Shown: positions 32,498 through 37,694 of the stretch, piece after piece
How positions within the stretch are numbered: position 1 is the first letter of the stretch
Layout: each line of letters starts with the position of its first letter
Assembly (NCBI GenBank): GCA_027619595.1
Contig: JAQCHP010000029.1
Location: 1-41,943, forward strand
Origin: Planctomycetota bacterium
GTDB lineage: Bacteria > Planctomycetota > Planctomycetia > Pirellulales > Pirellulaceae
Direction of reading: 5' to 3'
Length of the DNA stretch: 41,943 nucleotides
Translations under genes and position numbers: made by a program
The notes under the pieces: generated by a model
What the model saw: the letters and a program-made list of their open reading frames with translations, nothing else
The model's database searches: none
Told to the model about the DNA's origin: nothing

Positions 32498-32893
32498 TTA
32501 CGACAAGCCAGAATTCGAACGAACATGCTCCAAAGCGTGCTCCAGATGCTCCCGCAATGCAAGAAAGCGTTTACGATCGCCGCCCCGATCGGGGTGCAAT
32601 TGTTCTGCTAAGCGTCGATAAGCGTGCTTGATCTCTTCCTCACTGGCGGAAGCACGAACCCCCAAGGCACGGAAGTACGGGGGATCCTGATGTTTGGCCC
32701 ATTCTGGCACAATATATTGCGGCGCTTGCGATATAACGACCAGGGCTCGCTGTAGTGCACGCAGGTAGGCCCGGAAGTCAACGTACATGAACCAATAGCC
32801 AACGAACGGGAGCATCACGAAGCACAAGAATAAGAGCAGGCTCGCTGTATTGATCAGTACGACAAAACTTGCACTGGGTTCTGCTGGATTCAT
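32498..32893 (-). CDS. Membrane-anchored J-domain protein
   Basis: 131 residues. Two hydrophobic segments lie at the N-terminus (about 10-33 SFVVLINTASLLLFLCFVML and on into FVGYWFMYV), then a cytosolic linker and a C-terminal J domain: YFRALGVRASASEEEIKHAY with the HPD triad in LHPDRGGD. No glycine-rich or zinc region is present, so it is a type III J protein that probably recruits DnaK to the membrane. Its ATG overlaps the lptB stop by four bases (ATGA), a strong sign of co-translation with the LPS transport ATPase. Role in envelope assembly is inferred from that coupling. Confidence 0.85.
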   Translation of the reverse strand: MNPAEPSASFVVLINTASLLLFLCFVMLPFVGYWFMYVDFRAYLRALQRALVVISQAPQYIVPEWAKHQDPPYFRALGVRASASEEEIKHAYRRLAEQLHPDRGGDRKRFLALREHLEHALEHVRSNSGLS

Positions 32894-33768
32894 GTCAATC
32901 GACGTGATTTGGGATCCGTGGATTTCGAATGGGGAGTATTCGGCCGAATCCCGGCGGCTAACTTAGTACCCGCAGGTTGAGTTGCCATTTGCGCAGATAG
33001 GTGCATACCAGTCGGCAGCGAACCCGGTGCTCCACCGACGGAATCGGCATCGATTCCTTCGCCAAAATAGTATTTACGTGCGTCCGGATTCGATAGCACC
33101 TCACGGGGCGTCCCGTGACACAGTACTTGGCCTTGGCGAATCACATAACTACGATCGGTAATTTCCAGCGTTTCGCGGACCTGATGGTCGGTAATCAAAA
33201 TCGATATCCCTTCGTCCCGTAATTCTCGGATAATCATCTGGATGCTGTCGATCGTCACCGGATCGATACCGGTAAAGGGCTCGTCCAGCAGTATGATTTG
33301 AGGTTCAGAAATAAGACACCGGGCGATTTCCAACCTTCGCCGTTCGCCTCCAGACAACGATGCGGCGCGTGATTTTCGAATATGGTCGATTTTAAACCTC
33401 TGCAGCAATTCGTCGCACCGCCGGCGTCTCTTGGCTCGATCCATGCCTAGCATTTCCATCATAGCGAGAAGGTTCTGCTGCACCGTCAGTTTGCGAAAAA
33501 CGCTCGATTCTTGCGCTAAATACCCCATATTGCCGTCCCTTGCTCGTTGGAACATGGGCCAGTTCGTTACGTCTTTGCCTTGCAAGATCACAACGCCGGC
33601 GTCGGGCTCCACCATGCCACAGGTCATGCGAAAACAAGTTGTCTTACCGGCACCGTTGGGACCCAAGAGCCCTACAATTTCCCCCTTATCGACTTCAAAG
33701 TCGACGCCATCCACGACGCGTCTTCGGCCATAGTTTTTCACCAACCCACTCACCGATAAAATCGACAT
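32890..33768 (-). CDS. lptB: LPS export ABC transporter ATP-binding protein
   Basis: ATPase of the LptB2FG complex that extracts LPS from the inner membrane. From the ATG at 33768 (GAGGA upstream) it has 292 residues; the earlier ATG at 33783 is less well placed. Walker A is GPNGAGKTT (about 37-45), the ABC signature LSGGERRRLEIARCL, Walker B IILLDEPFTGIDP and H-loop ITDHQVRETLEITDR, the last typical of LptB. The C-terminus is about 50 residues longer than usual: a polar, low-complexity tail after YYFGEGID. It is followed by the coupled J-domain gene; lptFG are not in the window. The reading as LptB rather than LivF-type is favoured by ITDHQVRETL. Confidence 0.9.
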   Translation of the reverse strand: MSILSVSGLVKNYGRRRVVDGVDFEVDKGEIVGLLGPNGAGKTTCFRMTCGMVEPDAGVVILQGKDVTNWPMFQRARDGNMGYLAQESSVFRKLTVQQNLLAMMEMLGMDRAKRRRRCDELLQRFKIDHIRKSRAASLSGGERRRLEIARCLISEPQIILLDEPFTGIDPVTIDSIQMIIRELRDEGISILITDHQVRETLEITDRSYVIRQGQVLCHGTPREVLSNPDARKYYFGEGIDADSVGGAPGSLPTGMHLSAQMATQPAGTKLAAGIRPNTPHSKSTDPKSRRLT

Positions 33769-33879
33769 TGCGTCATCCTCCATGCCATCGGTTTCGGTCG
33801 ATCCAAGACGTCCGTTGATATAATTCTACGACCGCGTATTTTGTACTTTGACGATTTTTGAGACCTCAGCACCATCCAA

Positions 33880-35784
33880 CTAGCGAATCAATCCCATTCG
33901 CATAAAGTCCGGTGGAAGAGCGTTAATCACGGGGTATTTTTCCATTTCGGTCCGACCAGGAAAGCCGGAAATTTGCCCTTGAGGATAATAAATCATGAAC
34001 GCTTTTCCCAACAATAATTCCCGTTCCACGTAACTGGGTCCCTCCCAAAGCCGCGCGTCCTTGCTCGAGGGACTGTTGTCGCCCATGGGAAAAAACTGGT
34101 CTGCTTTCAGCGAGAACTCTTCCGATTGTCGCCGGTCGAACAGGTCCCCCTCGCGCCAAACTTCCGGAAAGCGGAAATAATCATCGAGCGTGCATATGCC
34201 GTTAAAATCGAGTCCGTTTCGGTTGCGCAGCCATGTCGCCAAATGGCTGAGTTCGTCATGAATGGCAATGTCTGGATATTCAATGATCGACCCCTGCCGT
34301 GTACGCGGATTCACGGCCACGTAATAAACATCGCGGTGAACTTGGAGGCGTGCGATGCTGCCGGTAACCCCTTGAATTCCGATGCCGATCGGAGATAAGT
34401 CGCCGGCATTGGTGGTACTCCACTGAGGCCGTTGTCGAGCAGGAACGCTATACGTGGTGGGACCGCTGAATTCCACCAGCTTTCCGTCAACCCAGACCAA
34501 TATCTGGTTGTCGACGTTGGAAAATTTGATGTTGTGCTTACCGGCGCCACGTACGTTCGTACGGGCTTGTCGGTCGGCCGCATCACTCTCTTCCCCATCG
34601 AAGGCAATTGAGTCACCCGCGTTGGAGTCACCCGCGATGACGAGACGGGCGTCACCCGTTTTGATATCAAAATGACATTGGAAGCGGTGCGTTGATTCGA
34701 CCAGTTCCATTACGAACTCGCCTTCGGCCGAATCGACTTGCAGGTCACAAGTAACCGCCAAATCGCCCACCCAATGTCCACCACATGTGCCGCTGGGGGC
34801 CGACATTCGGTTTCGGTCTTGATGAACTTTCGCATTGTACGAATAAAAATCGGTAATTAGCGACGGTCTCGGACGCAACACATCGTCGGTGGGCACTGGC
34901 TCACCATTATCGATCATTTCCCAATGATCCTGGGACGGGACCATATGTTGATATCGTAGCCAATGAAGTTGGGAAGATGCATTCGTACCGATCTGAAACG
35001 AACTTCCGCCATCGGGGGACTTCCAAGTCGACGCGTCGGACTCGCTGATCGGCCGCCAACGGGCTGGCCACCCTGCCTTTGTGAGTTCCTCGGCTACGAA
35101 TCGTGTATCGTGCACCGGTTGCAGCATCGCTAGAACTTTGGCCGGGGGCTTTCTTTGAATCACAAAATCCGCTTGCTGTGAGGCAAGGGTGTAGACATCT
35201 CCTTGCACGATCCGCAAAGTTTCATTGGGTAGCCCCACCAAGCGTTTGATAAAATTCTGCTTTGCGTTAGCCGGGAACTTGAAAACAATGACATCCCAGC
35301 GTTTGGGATCCGCGATGTCGTACGCGAACTTATTGACAAGGATCCGATCCCCATTGAGTCCGGGGTAGGACGGAACTTCGCGTCGTCCTTGGGTTTCTAC
35401 AGTCGAATTCGGATACTGACACATGGGGCAAATAGTTTGCACAATGTGCCCCTGCCCTCGGACTTCGTCGATACTAGCACCTACCTGGTGCCAATTGCCA
35501 CATTTTTCGCATTGAACGCTGAGGTAACGGCCACGCAGGGTTGGCGCCATCGAACCGGTGGGAATGACGAACGCTTCTGCCTCGAAAGCGCGAAACAAAA
35601 ACGCCAATATGATCGCCACAACTACCGACTCAATGGCTTCGCGATTCCAGCGTGCACTGGCGGAGGCCGACACCGTCGGTTGCGAAACGTAATCCGTGAC
35701 GCTACGGGCACGTGGCGTTCTCACGCTCGGCTTCGCATCGCCGGGAGTACTGAAGGCCCGATCTCGCTTCTTTTTCTGGCTCAT
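33880..35784 (-). CDS. lepB: Signal peptidase I with zinc-ribbon and large inserted domain
   Basis: Cleaves signal peptides of exported proteins at the outer face of the inner membrane. At 634 residues it is twice the usual size. One membrane helix (about 51-66) precedes box B FVIPTGSMAPTLRG with catalytic Ser78. The catalytic Lys is K180 in NFIKRLVGLPNE, and box E is FPMGDNSPSSKDAR (565-578). Between boxes B and C is a zinc-ribbon-like insert (C92, C95, C119, C122). Between the Lys region and box E lies a ~350-residue insert, part of which (about 345-490: GEFVMELVES, HRFQCHFDIKTGDARLVI, KFSNVDNQILVWVDGKLVEF) looks like a concanavalin/LamG-like beta sandwich. Its ATG overlaps the lepA stop (ATGA). 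Confidence 0.92.
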   Translation of the reverse strand: MSQKKKRDRAFSTPGDAKPSVRTPRARSVTDYVSQPTVSASASARWNREAIESVVVAIILAFLFRAFEAEAFVIPTGSMAPTLRGRYLSVQCEKCGNWHQVGASIDEVRGQGHIVQTICPMCQYPNSTVETQGRREVPSYPGLNGDRILVNKFAYDIADPKRWDVIVFKFPANAKQNFIKRLVGLPNETLRIVQGDVYTLASQQADFVIQRKPPAKVLAMLQPVHDTRFVAEELTKAGWPARWRPISESDASTWKSPDGGSSFQIGTNASSQLHWLRYQHMVPSQDHWEMIDNGEPVPTDDVLRPRPSLITDFYSYNAKVHQDRNRMSAPSGTCGGHWVGDLAVTCDLQVDSAEGEFVMELVESTHRFQCHFDIKTGDARLVIAGDSNAGDSIAFDGEESDAADRQARTNVRGAGKHNIKFSNVDNQILVWVDGKLVEFSGPTTYSVPARQRPQWSTTNAGDLSPIGIGIQGVTGSIARLQVHRDVYYVAVNPRTRQGSIIEYPDIAIHDELSHLATWLRNRNGLDFNGICTLDDYFRFPEVWREGDLFDRRQSEEFSLKADQFFPMGDNSPSSKDARLWEGPSYVERELLLGKAFMIYYPQGQISGFPGRTEMEKYPVINALPPDFMRMGLIR

Positions 35785-37592
35785 TTCGTTTCACCCGTTT
35801 CCAATACGGCCATAAACGCCTTCTGAGGGATGTCGACCTGACCGATCGACTTCATCCGCTTCTTGCCCTCTCGCTGTTTGGCCCACAGTTTGCGTTTGCG
35901 CGTGATGTCGCCACCATAACACTTCGCCGTCACGTTCTTGCGCATGGCGGGCACGGTTTCGCGAGCAATCACGCGGGAGCCAATCGCAGCCTGGACAGCA
36001 ATCTCAAACATATGCCGTTCGATTTCTGCCTTAAGTTTCTTCACCACTGCACGTCCTCGTCGGTCCGCGTCGCGCCGATCGCAGATGATGGCAAGTGCGT
36101 CCACTTTGTTGCCGTTGACGAGCATATCAAGTCGCACCAAGTCCGCAGGTTCGTAACCAATCACTTCGTAGTCCATTGTGCCAAATCCACGCGTGACGCT
36201 CTTCAGTTTGTCATGCAGATCGTAGATGACCTCGGCCAGCGGCAGGTGATACGACAACATCGCTCGTGTAGGAGATAGATATTCGGTCTTGGTAAGCGAG
36301 CCACGTCGGTCCTGGCAAAGCTTCATGGCGGCGCCAATATATTCGGTTGGAAGCACCAGGTTCACTTTGACAATTGGTTGTCGAAACTCTTCGATGTCCC
36401 CAGCGTCAGGCACCTCTTGCGGGCGGTGAATGTCGATGGTCTCTCCGCTGCGTGTGAGCACCTCGTAGGTGACATTCGGAGCAGTCTGCACCAAATCAAT
36501 ATCCGATTCCTGCTCCAAGCGCTGCTGGACGATCTCCATATGGAGCAGCCCCAAGAATCCACAACGAAACCCGAACCCCAGAGCTTCGCTGGATTCGGGT
36601 TGAAATTCGAAACTCGGGTCATTGATCGAAAGTTTATTGAGCGCATCCCGTAATTCATCGAAGTCTTGACCATCCGAGGGGTACAACCCGCAATAAACCA
36701 TTCTTTTCGGCTGTTGGTAGCCCGGGAGTGGGGTTGAAACCCCTTCGCGAATGTCACCCACCGTCTCCCCGATGTGGACTTCGTCCAGTGATTTAATATT
36801 GCAAATCAGGTATCCCACCTGCCCTGCATGCAAAACGGTACATGGTTTCCGTTGTGGCACAAACTGTCCAAGCTCAACGACTTCGTACGTTTTATTACTC
36901 CGCAGCATGCGAATTTTTTGGCCAAGTCGCACCTGTCCAGTCATCATCCGCACGTAAGTGATGGCACCGCGAAACGAGTCGTAGTGCGAATCGAAAATCA
37001 TCGCCTGCAGCGGCGCGTCGACATCACCGGTTGGAGGTGGGATGCGTTCGATCACCGCCGATAATAGTTCTTCAATACCGATTCCTGACTTGGCGCTAGC
37101 GCGCACAACGTCGGCGGGATCGATGGCAAGTGATTGCTCCATTTCCACCAACACTTCATCGGGACGGGCATGCAAAAGATCAATCTTGTTGATAACCGGT
37201 ACAATTAACAGATCATGTTCCATAGCGGCGTACGCATTGGCTACCGTTTGCGCCTCAACACCTTGAAATGCATCCACGAGCAATAGCGCGCCTTCACAGC
37301 AAGAAAATGACCGGGAAACTTCGTAGTGGAAGTCAACGTGTCCAGGCGTATCGATTAAGTTGAGCTCGTACTCTTGGCCCTTGTAGGTATATTTCATGGC
37401 TACGCTGCGGGCCTTGATGGTGATGCCACGGGCGCGTTCCAGCTCCATGTCGTCCAGCACCTGTTCCTTCATCTGGCGCTTGTCCACGGTTCCGGTAAAC
37501 TCCAACAATCGATCAGCGAGCGTGCTCTTTCCGTGATCGATGTGGGCGATAATGCAGAAATTACGAATATACTTTAGTTCCATTGCGGTCAT
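35781..37592 (-). CDS. lepA: Elongation factor 4 (LepA), ribosome-associated GTPase
   Basis: Translational GTPase implicated in back-translocation or initiation quality. From the ATG at 37592 (CGGAG seven bases upstream) it is 603 residues, the normal size. G1 is AHIDHGKST, G3 DTPGHVDF and G4 NKID. Domain II and the EF-G-like domains follow, and the C-terminal LepA-specific domain ends GDITRKRKLWAKQREGKKRM, which is diagnostic. An ATG at 37583 would also serve. It overlaps lepB by four bases; lepA-lepB is a classic arrangement, here with lepA first. Confidence 0.98.
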   Translation of the reverse strand: MTAMELKYIRNFCIIAHIDHGKSTLADRLLEFTGTVDKRQMKEQVLDDMELERARGITIKARSVAMKYTYKGQEYELNLIDTPGHVDFHYEVSRSFSCCEGALLLVDAFQGVEAQTVANAYAAMEHDLLIVPVINKIDLLHARPDEVLVEMEQSLAIDPADVVRASAKSGIGIEELLSAVIERIPPPTGDVDAPLQAMIFDSHYDSFRGAITYVRMMTGQVRLGQKIRMLRSNKTYEVVELGQFVPQRKPCTVLHAGQVGYLICNIKSLDEVHIGETVGDIREGVSTPLPGYQQPKRMVYCGLYPSDGQDFDELRDALNKLSINDPSFEFQPESSEALGFGFRCGFLGLLHMEIVQQRLEQESDIDLVQTAPNVTYEVLTRSGETIDIHRPQEVPDAGDIEEFRQPIVKVNLVLPTEYIGAAMKLCQDRRGSLTKTEYLSPTRAMLSYHLPLAEVIYDLHDKLKSVTRGFGTMDYEVIGYEPADLVRLDMLVNGNKVDALAIICDRRDADRRGRAVVKKLKAEIERHMFEIAVQAAIGSRVIARETVPAMRKNVTAKCYGGDITRKRKLWAKQREGKKRMKSIGQVDIPQKAFMAVLETGETK

Positions 37593-37694
37593 GTTATGCT
37601 CCGGCGTTAATACAGTGCTAAAAGTTGAGGGCCGCAAGGGTTGCGATTGCCTCAGGCAAAAAGCAACAATATTGTCCGCCGTGTGAAAAATGAA

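Follow-up and report, generated by a model that had tools for sequence, protein, structure and literature searches.

Our sequence analyses and structural predictions suggest that lepB of a Pirellulaceae bacterium quite probably encodes the main type I signal peptidase of its cell, an enzyme that would have been remodelled in the planctomycete lineage by building a cysteine ribbon and a jelly-roll domain into it. Secretion depends on signal peptidase I, which is also a drug target and is usually viewed as a core that is conserved plus a domain II that varies, and planctomycetes are a phylum with unusual cell envelopes. The gene lies in a 41,943-nucleotide stretch of contig JAQCHP010000029.1 (assembly GCA_027619595.1), hereafter the window, and its features and neighbors are collected in Table 1.

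Table 1. Features of lepB and its two neighboring genes in the window
Feature	Position	Strand	Basis
lepB, 634-aa type I signal peptidase with two insertions	33880..35784	minus	ORF from ATG, family models, predicted fold
Predicted membrane-anchor helix, residues 42-68, taken as single anchor	35581..35661	minus	predicted model
Box B PTGSMAPT, residues 75-82, nucleophile Ser78	35539..35562	minus	sequence, 59-row conservation
Putative cysteine-ribbon insertion, residues 85-143, box B/box C interval, Cys92, 95, 119, 122	35356..35532	minus	
Boxes C and D, residues 144-200, general base Lys180	35185..35355	minus	sequence, conservation
Predicted concanavalin/galectin-like jelly roll, residues 213-488	34321..35148	minus	model, fold and profile searches
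Variable helical linker, residues 489-553, lower confidence	34126..34320	minus	predicted model
Box E GDNSPSSKDAR, residues 568-578	34051..34083	minus	sequence, conservation
lepA (elongation factor 4)	35781..37637	minus	TIGR01393 898.6 bits
lptB-type ABC ATPase, downstream of lepB	32890..33783	minus	TIGR04406 327.4 bits, cut-off 240

The initial annotation of this gene as a signal peptidase I with Ser78, Lys180 and box E is confirmed by the translation, in which GSM at residues 77-79 supplies Ser78 and NFIKR at 177-181 supplies Lys180, and the product scores 100.5 bits with PF10502 (cut-off 22.9), 93.9 bits with TIGR02227 (cut-off 47) and 62.9 bits with the enterobacterial equivalog NF008114, far under the 277-bit cut-off of that model. 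PF10502 matches the protein in three separate stretches because the two insertions interrupt the domain. For conservation we used a 59-row alignment consisting of the window protein and, for 58 of 80 loci, a single selected ORF per locus, the loci being the best 80 of at least 566 confirmed matches found by an alignment scan of genome contigs (78 of the 80 carry planctomycete taxon names and the remaining two are named just ‘bacterium’; a scan with the single LepB protein as query gave no matches). Across these chosen relatives residues I74 to M79 are invariant, as are Ser78, Lys180 and the box E residues G568, D569, N570, S574, D576 and R578, and the intact dyad and box E support the earlier proposal that the enzyme is probably active. 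There are 11 Lys/Arg but 3 Asp/Glu within residues 1-48, and because of this positive N-terminus and the single predicted helix the protein would be oriented with its N-terminus inside and its catalytic part outside the cytoplasm.

The AlphaFold model of the product (mean pLDDT 85.9, pTM 0.86, with the 59-row alignment as input) has E. coli LepB as its top solved-structure match (1t7d_A; Z 16.7, rmsd 2.9, 166 residues aligned), and it shares with that S26A enzyme (1t7d, 1b12) the box B Ser, the Lys, box E and the fold. In a phmmer comparison residues 64-84 pair with residues 2-22 of the E. coli chain and residues 145-189 with residues 24-80, while residues 189-559 fall between chain residues 80 and 189; the outer two of the three phmmer pieces, including that at 64-84, are individually weak. 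Since these pieces flank the cysteine segment, that segment is an insertion relative to E. coli LepB, with 60 residues in the planctomycete protein at a site occupied by one residue in the aligned E. coli chain. The jelly roll roughly coincides in position with the smaller domain II of E. coli LepB, and there about 370 residues stand against about 110 in the E. coli chain; considering that 166 of the 208 E. coli residues were aligned, part of domain II may persist beside the jelly roll. Between the Lys motif and box E the median spacing in 156 planctomycete ORFs is 334, and the window LepB has 389, compared with about 127 in E. coli numbering.

A four-cysteine ribbon just after the serine box had been proposed, and the sequence data support such a putative ribbon: Cys92, 95, 119 and 122 are present in a CxxC-x23-CxxC spacing with a CPxC knuckle and are kept together in relatives, with C92, C95 and C119 reaching 90% conservation in the 59-row alignment and C122 falling short. 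The protein has further cysteines at residues 334, 346, 370 and 531. Starting from 183 distinct LepB-like ORFs unselected for cysteines, of which 38 without an anchor were set aside, we scored the ribbon segment in 145 and found two CxxC in 114, three to six in 12, none in 18 and a single one in 1. A wider pattern applied to a larger set, with 31 ORFs set aside as unscorable, gave two CxxC in 117 of 162 scored ORFs, three to six in 13, none in 31 and one in 1. A metal site would be expected to leave hardly any half-lost states, as seen here, though the rows are related. Neither the insertion nor any CxxC is found in 12 of the 162, where the Ser-Lys distance is 47-68 vs 102 in the window LepB, and the insertion is absent from the alignment in three deep planctomycete families; three further loci (L036, L037 and L116) have no CxxC pairs and retain the loop length (Ser-Lys distance 97-99). 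Several lineages retain the enzyme and do without the ribbon, so catalysis in itself does not require the ribbon. On the LepB tree the cysteines must switch between present and absent at least 10 times and the rows cluster, in a quick tree of 160 columns and many weak forks that speaks to clustering and several changes and not to origin; two Scalindua rows are filed there as ‘ribbon’ via the alignment, the CxxC counts themselves coming from the ORF scoring.

Profile and fold comparisons of this segment point weakly in the same direction. A 38-row ribbon alignment (the window and 37 of 38 rows listed for two CxxC, L115 being left out) has one invariant glycine and four invariant cysteines, the latter through row selection, and searched against solved structures its profile finds rubredoxin first (E 0.0053), with rubredoxin, L37Ae and eS27 spanning E 0.0053-0.037 and mostly other zinc-binding proteins following rubredoxin among the 60 of 105 matches listed, all of them weak. 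In the full model the segment has a pLDDT of 83-95 by block over residues 81-140; modelled alone it has 69.2 overall and 82-87 in the knuckle blocks, and the segment-alone model finds its best structural matches in the ZitP zinc finger and in LysW, with Z of 2.8-3.2, which is low and suggestive, and no Foldseek match below E 0.93. Rubredoxin, L37Ae, eS27, LysW and ZitP share with the LepB segment a ribbon-like CxxC spacing and the CPxC knuckle, although unlike these rubredoxin and zinc-ribbon proteins the LepB segment is inserted in a membrane protease, presumably on the outer side of the membrane. Spacing, co-loss, the weak profile match and the low-scoring fold match are together suggestive of a putative zinc ribbon. 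Two variations on the theme were also observed. Six CxxC lie between box B and the Lys in two Scalindua loci (L172, L173) and in a planctomycete MAG (L171, its ORF cut by a contig end), where the sequences resemble a triplication of the ribbon, and at five loci (L053, L056, L062, L068 and L069) a further CxxC...CxxC pair occurs about 130-165 residues before box B, which by its position would place it on the cytoplasmic side.

Before box E the initial annotation had placed a LamG/concanavalin-like segment at about residues 345-490; the fold stands and the span does not, as the fold matches start near residue 213 and extend to about 488, so that an insert confined to 345-490 was rejected. Over this region the solved structures matched after LepB are mostly concanavalin-type folds, at Z 10.7-13.2, with galactocerebrosidase 3zr5 at Z 13.2 (168 aligned, rmsd 3.8), ERGIC-53 4ygb at Z 11.9, CBM66 4azz at Z 11.8 and GH16-type enzymes also matching. 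All 43 non-LepB structure matches listed have Z of at least 10.7, in a type of search where one domain can fill the match list and middling Z is common, and the first ten Foldseek matches include CBM66 and a galectin, below a levan utilisome chain and others. The concanavalin/galectin/LamG jelly rolls 4azz, 4ygb and 3zr5 thus have the same predicted fold as the insert (Z 11.8-13.2 over 152-170 residues) at 8-13% identity. The insert is predicted to be ordered, with pLDDT 79-98 per 10-residue block over residues 211-490, and on this model we rejected a disordered insert.

Sequence profiles see less of this relationship. The window insert matches no Pfam family even at E up to 1; GLEYA is weakly matched by 3 of 18 jelly-roll rows (best E 0.031), and among the 59 whole LepB proteins one weakly matches Laminin_G_3 (E 0.029) and one Gal-bind_lectin (E 0.02). 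A whole-protein LepB profile reaches galectin at E 0.012 and laminin at E 0.023, and neither is among the matches listed for the profile of the insert alone. The top non-LepB match of the whole-protein profile, USP28 (E 0.001), falls to E 0.054 with the insert alone, and we took this match as chance because the fold search gives jelly rolls. The jelly-roll rows are 17-41% identical to the window row, and the polar positions Y104, N105, D129, D213, R272, D273 and Y276 of the segment are invariant in 18 rows. In 25 genomes no confident free-standing relative of the insert was found, the confident matches being only in ORFs that are LepB-sized (438-801 aa, judged by size), and its profile also matches ORFs of 72-2177 aa at E 0.002-0.76. 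Plasmids gave no match, and a viral search returned named rows that are mostly tail, fibre, LamG-like and uncharacterised proteins, many rows being nameless, with no signal peptidase named among the 50 matches listed.

A survey of LepB architecture across planctomycetes, which had been proposed alongside the initial annotation, indicates that ribbon and jelly roll are common in the phylum and that neither is peculiar to the window genome. Of 294 genomes sampled across the phylum, 272 have a match to the window LepB as query, where a match need not include the insert, and the jelly-roll profile matches 172 of 198 LepB-like ORFs from planctomycetes, a set that contains fragments and overlapping loci, a single ribbon being present in 114 of the 145 scorable ORFs described above. 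In all 25 genomes searched, its own included, the best match of the jelly-roll profile lies in a frame of 499-801 aa, and in the window genome its one match is lepB. A PF10502 search of 12 of the 22 unmatched genomes gave matches in 9, 7 of them within frames of 543-681 aa (G009, G040, G060, G129, G144 and G174 of family f12, and G112 of family f10), and these seven long LepBs have no jelly-roll profile match; they are among the 26 ORFs that the jelly-roll profile misses, which also include fragments and the two S26 proteins C94 and C216 discussed below, some being counted twice via overlapping loci. The closest tree rows to the window LepB are Pirellulaceae, Rhodopirellula and Mariniblastus. 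With the jelly-roll form this widespread in the phylum, a peculiarity of one genome or a fusion artefact was rejected. Chlamydial LepB is also long, and in the open-access literature no paper bears on its length by title.

The gene neighborhood shows a similar breadth. In the window lepA overlaps the start of lepB by 4 bases (ATGA), and the lptB-type gene follows lepB at a distance of 97. An lptB-type gene lies at most 500 bases downstream of lepB in 70 of 128 loci with room, the window included (11 loci were set aside for lack of room, and a few duplicate one place, such as L044 = L114), and these loci range from Scalindua to Pirellulales-type genomes. A simple rule, which overlooks ORFs that overlap and contigs that are cut, places a same-strand lepA no more than 3.5 kb upstream in 31 of 141 loci. 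The order lepA-lepB, also that of E. coli, continues here into lptB, and lepA-lepB-lptB looks like an old gene order. Separately, a tandem second long lepB adjoins the main copy in 36 of 139 loci (for example L041:5984-7636) and is absent in the window; second copies often carry STGSM and not PTGSM at box B, and those aligned retain Ser, Lys and box E by eye. One copy, from another contig of its genome (L059), has Gly and Gln for Ser and Lys with the cysteine ribbon present, and at L122:3480-5225 the second copy is split into two adjacent ORFs of 281 and 299 aa, through decay or assembly error.

The position behind lepA and the wide retention fit a role as general enzyme. To see which S26 proteins accompany the long form, defined as an ORF over 400 aa that PF10502 matches only in pieces, we used 21 genomes picked for few contigs (18 single-contig, 20 at 90% completeness or better). 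In 15 of the 21, PF10502 matches (E up to 0.001, a threshold that would overlook weaker S26 proteins or other families) are found only in long, interrupted ORFs (G299, G304, G121, G313, G314, G167, G024, G048, G105, G152, G291, G283, G287, G034 and G217), which makes the long LepB the probable general enzyme of these genomes; G217 and G034 each encode one long LepB and nothing else that PF10502 matches. Six others (G127, G095, G107, G088, G258 and G155) also hold short or uninterrupted S26 matches, some of them weak. The initial annotation had also suggested unusual substrates or an envelope partner, and had mentioned planctomycete export to internal compartments; neither unusual substrates nor such export found support: two window proteins have, by eye, ordinary A-x-A signal-peptide ends, so no unusual substrate is needed, and together with the 15 long-form-only genomes this points to a general job.

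The window genome itself encodes two more S26 proteins. C94 (L094:1009-1926), of 305 aa, aligns Gly with the catalytic Ser and Gln with the Lys and is likely a pseudo-peptidase; TIGR02227 favours it (146.7 bits) over the window LepB (93.9 bits) although it is without the dyad, and it shares the window's composition, which gives no obvious sign of foreign origin. C216, of about 196-210 aa, has kept Ser and Lys and could share signal-peptidase work.

From motifs, fold, conservation and gene order, on which our view of activity, topology, metal and docking in planctomycete LepB is based, we infer the following arrangement. A single N-terminal helix would anchor LepB in the membrane, and the Ser78/Lys180 dyad, at the membrane's outer face, would cut ordinary signal peptides. 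A rubredoxin-like four-cysteine ribbon would be built in next to the substrate cleft, after the nucleophile strand and ahead of box C, where it most likely stiffens and positions the cleft edge via a bound metal, probably zinc, and the 275-residue lectin-fold jelly roll would most likely offer a surface on which an envelope partner or a glycan can dock.

The strongest rival to this docking and cleft-shaping view is that jelly roll and ribbon are structural ornament that stabilises or elongates the enzyme and recognises nothing. We regard this as a serious though less than even prospect, considering that E. coli LepB also carries about 110 residues at the jelly-roll site, that the jelly roll is divergent and the window insert has no Pfam match, and that several lineages lack the ribbon; the retention of the jelly roll in 172 of 198 ORFs and in 25 of 25 genomes, and its invariant polar positions, nevertheless suggest more than filling. 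A more specific form of docking, in which the lectin-fold domain binds LPS or surface polysaccharide and holds the peptidase at sites of envelope assembly, could draw on the many best structure matches that are lectin or glycan-binding modules (galactocerebrosidase, CBM66, ERGIC-53, galectins) and on the lptB-type gene that closely follows lepB in 70 of 128 loci. Similarity of fold does not establish a function, however, no binding residues were identified, and the lepB-lptB adjacency may merely be old gene order, so we consider glycan docking doubtful.

It is rather improbable that the long LepB is specialised for a subset of substrates while another S26 enzyme does the general work: the genome does hold two more S26 proteins, C216 with its dyad, and tandem second copies occur in 36 of 139 loci, but the long form stands alone in 15 of 21 genomes, C94 is without Ser and Lys, and the place behind lepA and wide retention fit a general enzyme. 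Somewhat more improbable still is a metal- or redox-gated protease, whose ribbon would free metal or form disulfides under stress and so regulate the cleft. The rubredoxin match of the ribbon profile and the cysteines that are kept or lost together, and multiplied in Scalindua, would agree with gating, whereas cysteine-free versions retain loop and enzyme, and the rubredoxin likeness, weak and obtained from rows chosen for CxxC pairs, shows neither iron nor redox chemistry. A joint reading, which we hold to be very improbable, is that a general peptidase was rebuilt as an envelope-sensing protease whose jelly roll tethers it to a surface glycan or LPS-export partner, in line with the neighboring lptB-type gene, and whose metal ribbon, lying outside the cytoplasm and varying by lineage from absent to multiplied, gates the active site in response to metal or redox state; if true, it would couple protein maturation to the building of the unusual planctomycete envelope.

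Within the open-access literature, with subscription papers largely outside this scope, we found no description of a lectin-fold or ribbon LepB, a silence that is weak evidence of novelty. Of the papers found, the portions available indicate that the positive control in PMC12758564 is a lepB-phoA fusion, and planctomycete LepB is not treated in the portions available of PMC1586193.

Planctomycetes carry a much larger version of the standard bacterial signal peptidase, and on the preferred reading, that of a remodelled general enzyme, this remodelling is widespread. Its two separable additions may offer direct handles, in that one could be removed and the dyad retained, on how envelope biology shapes export in these organisms, the anammox bacteria included.
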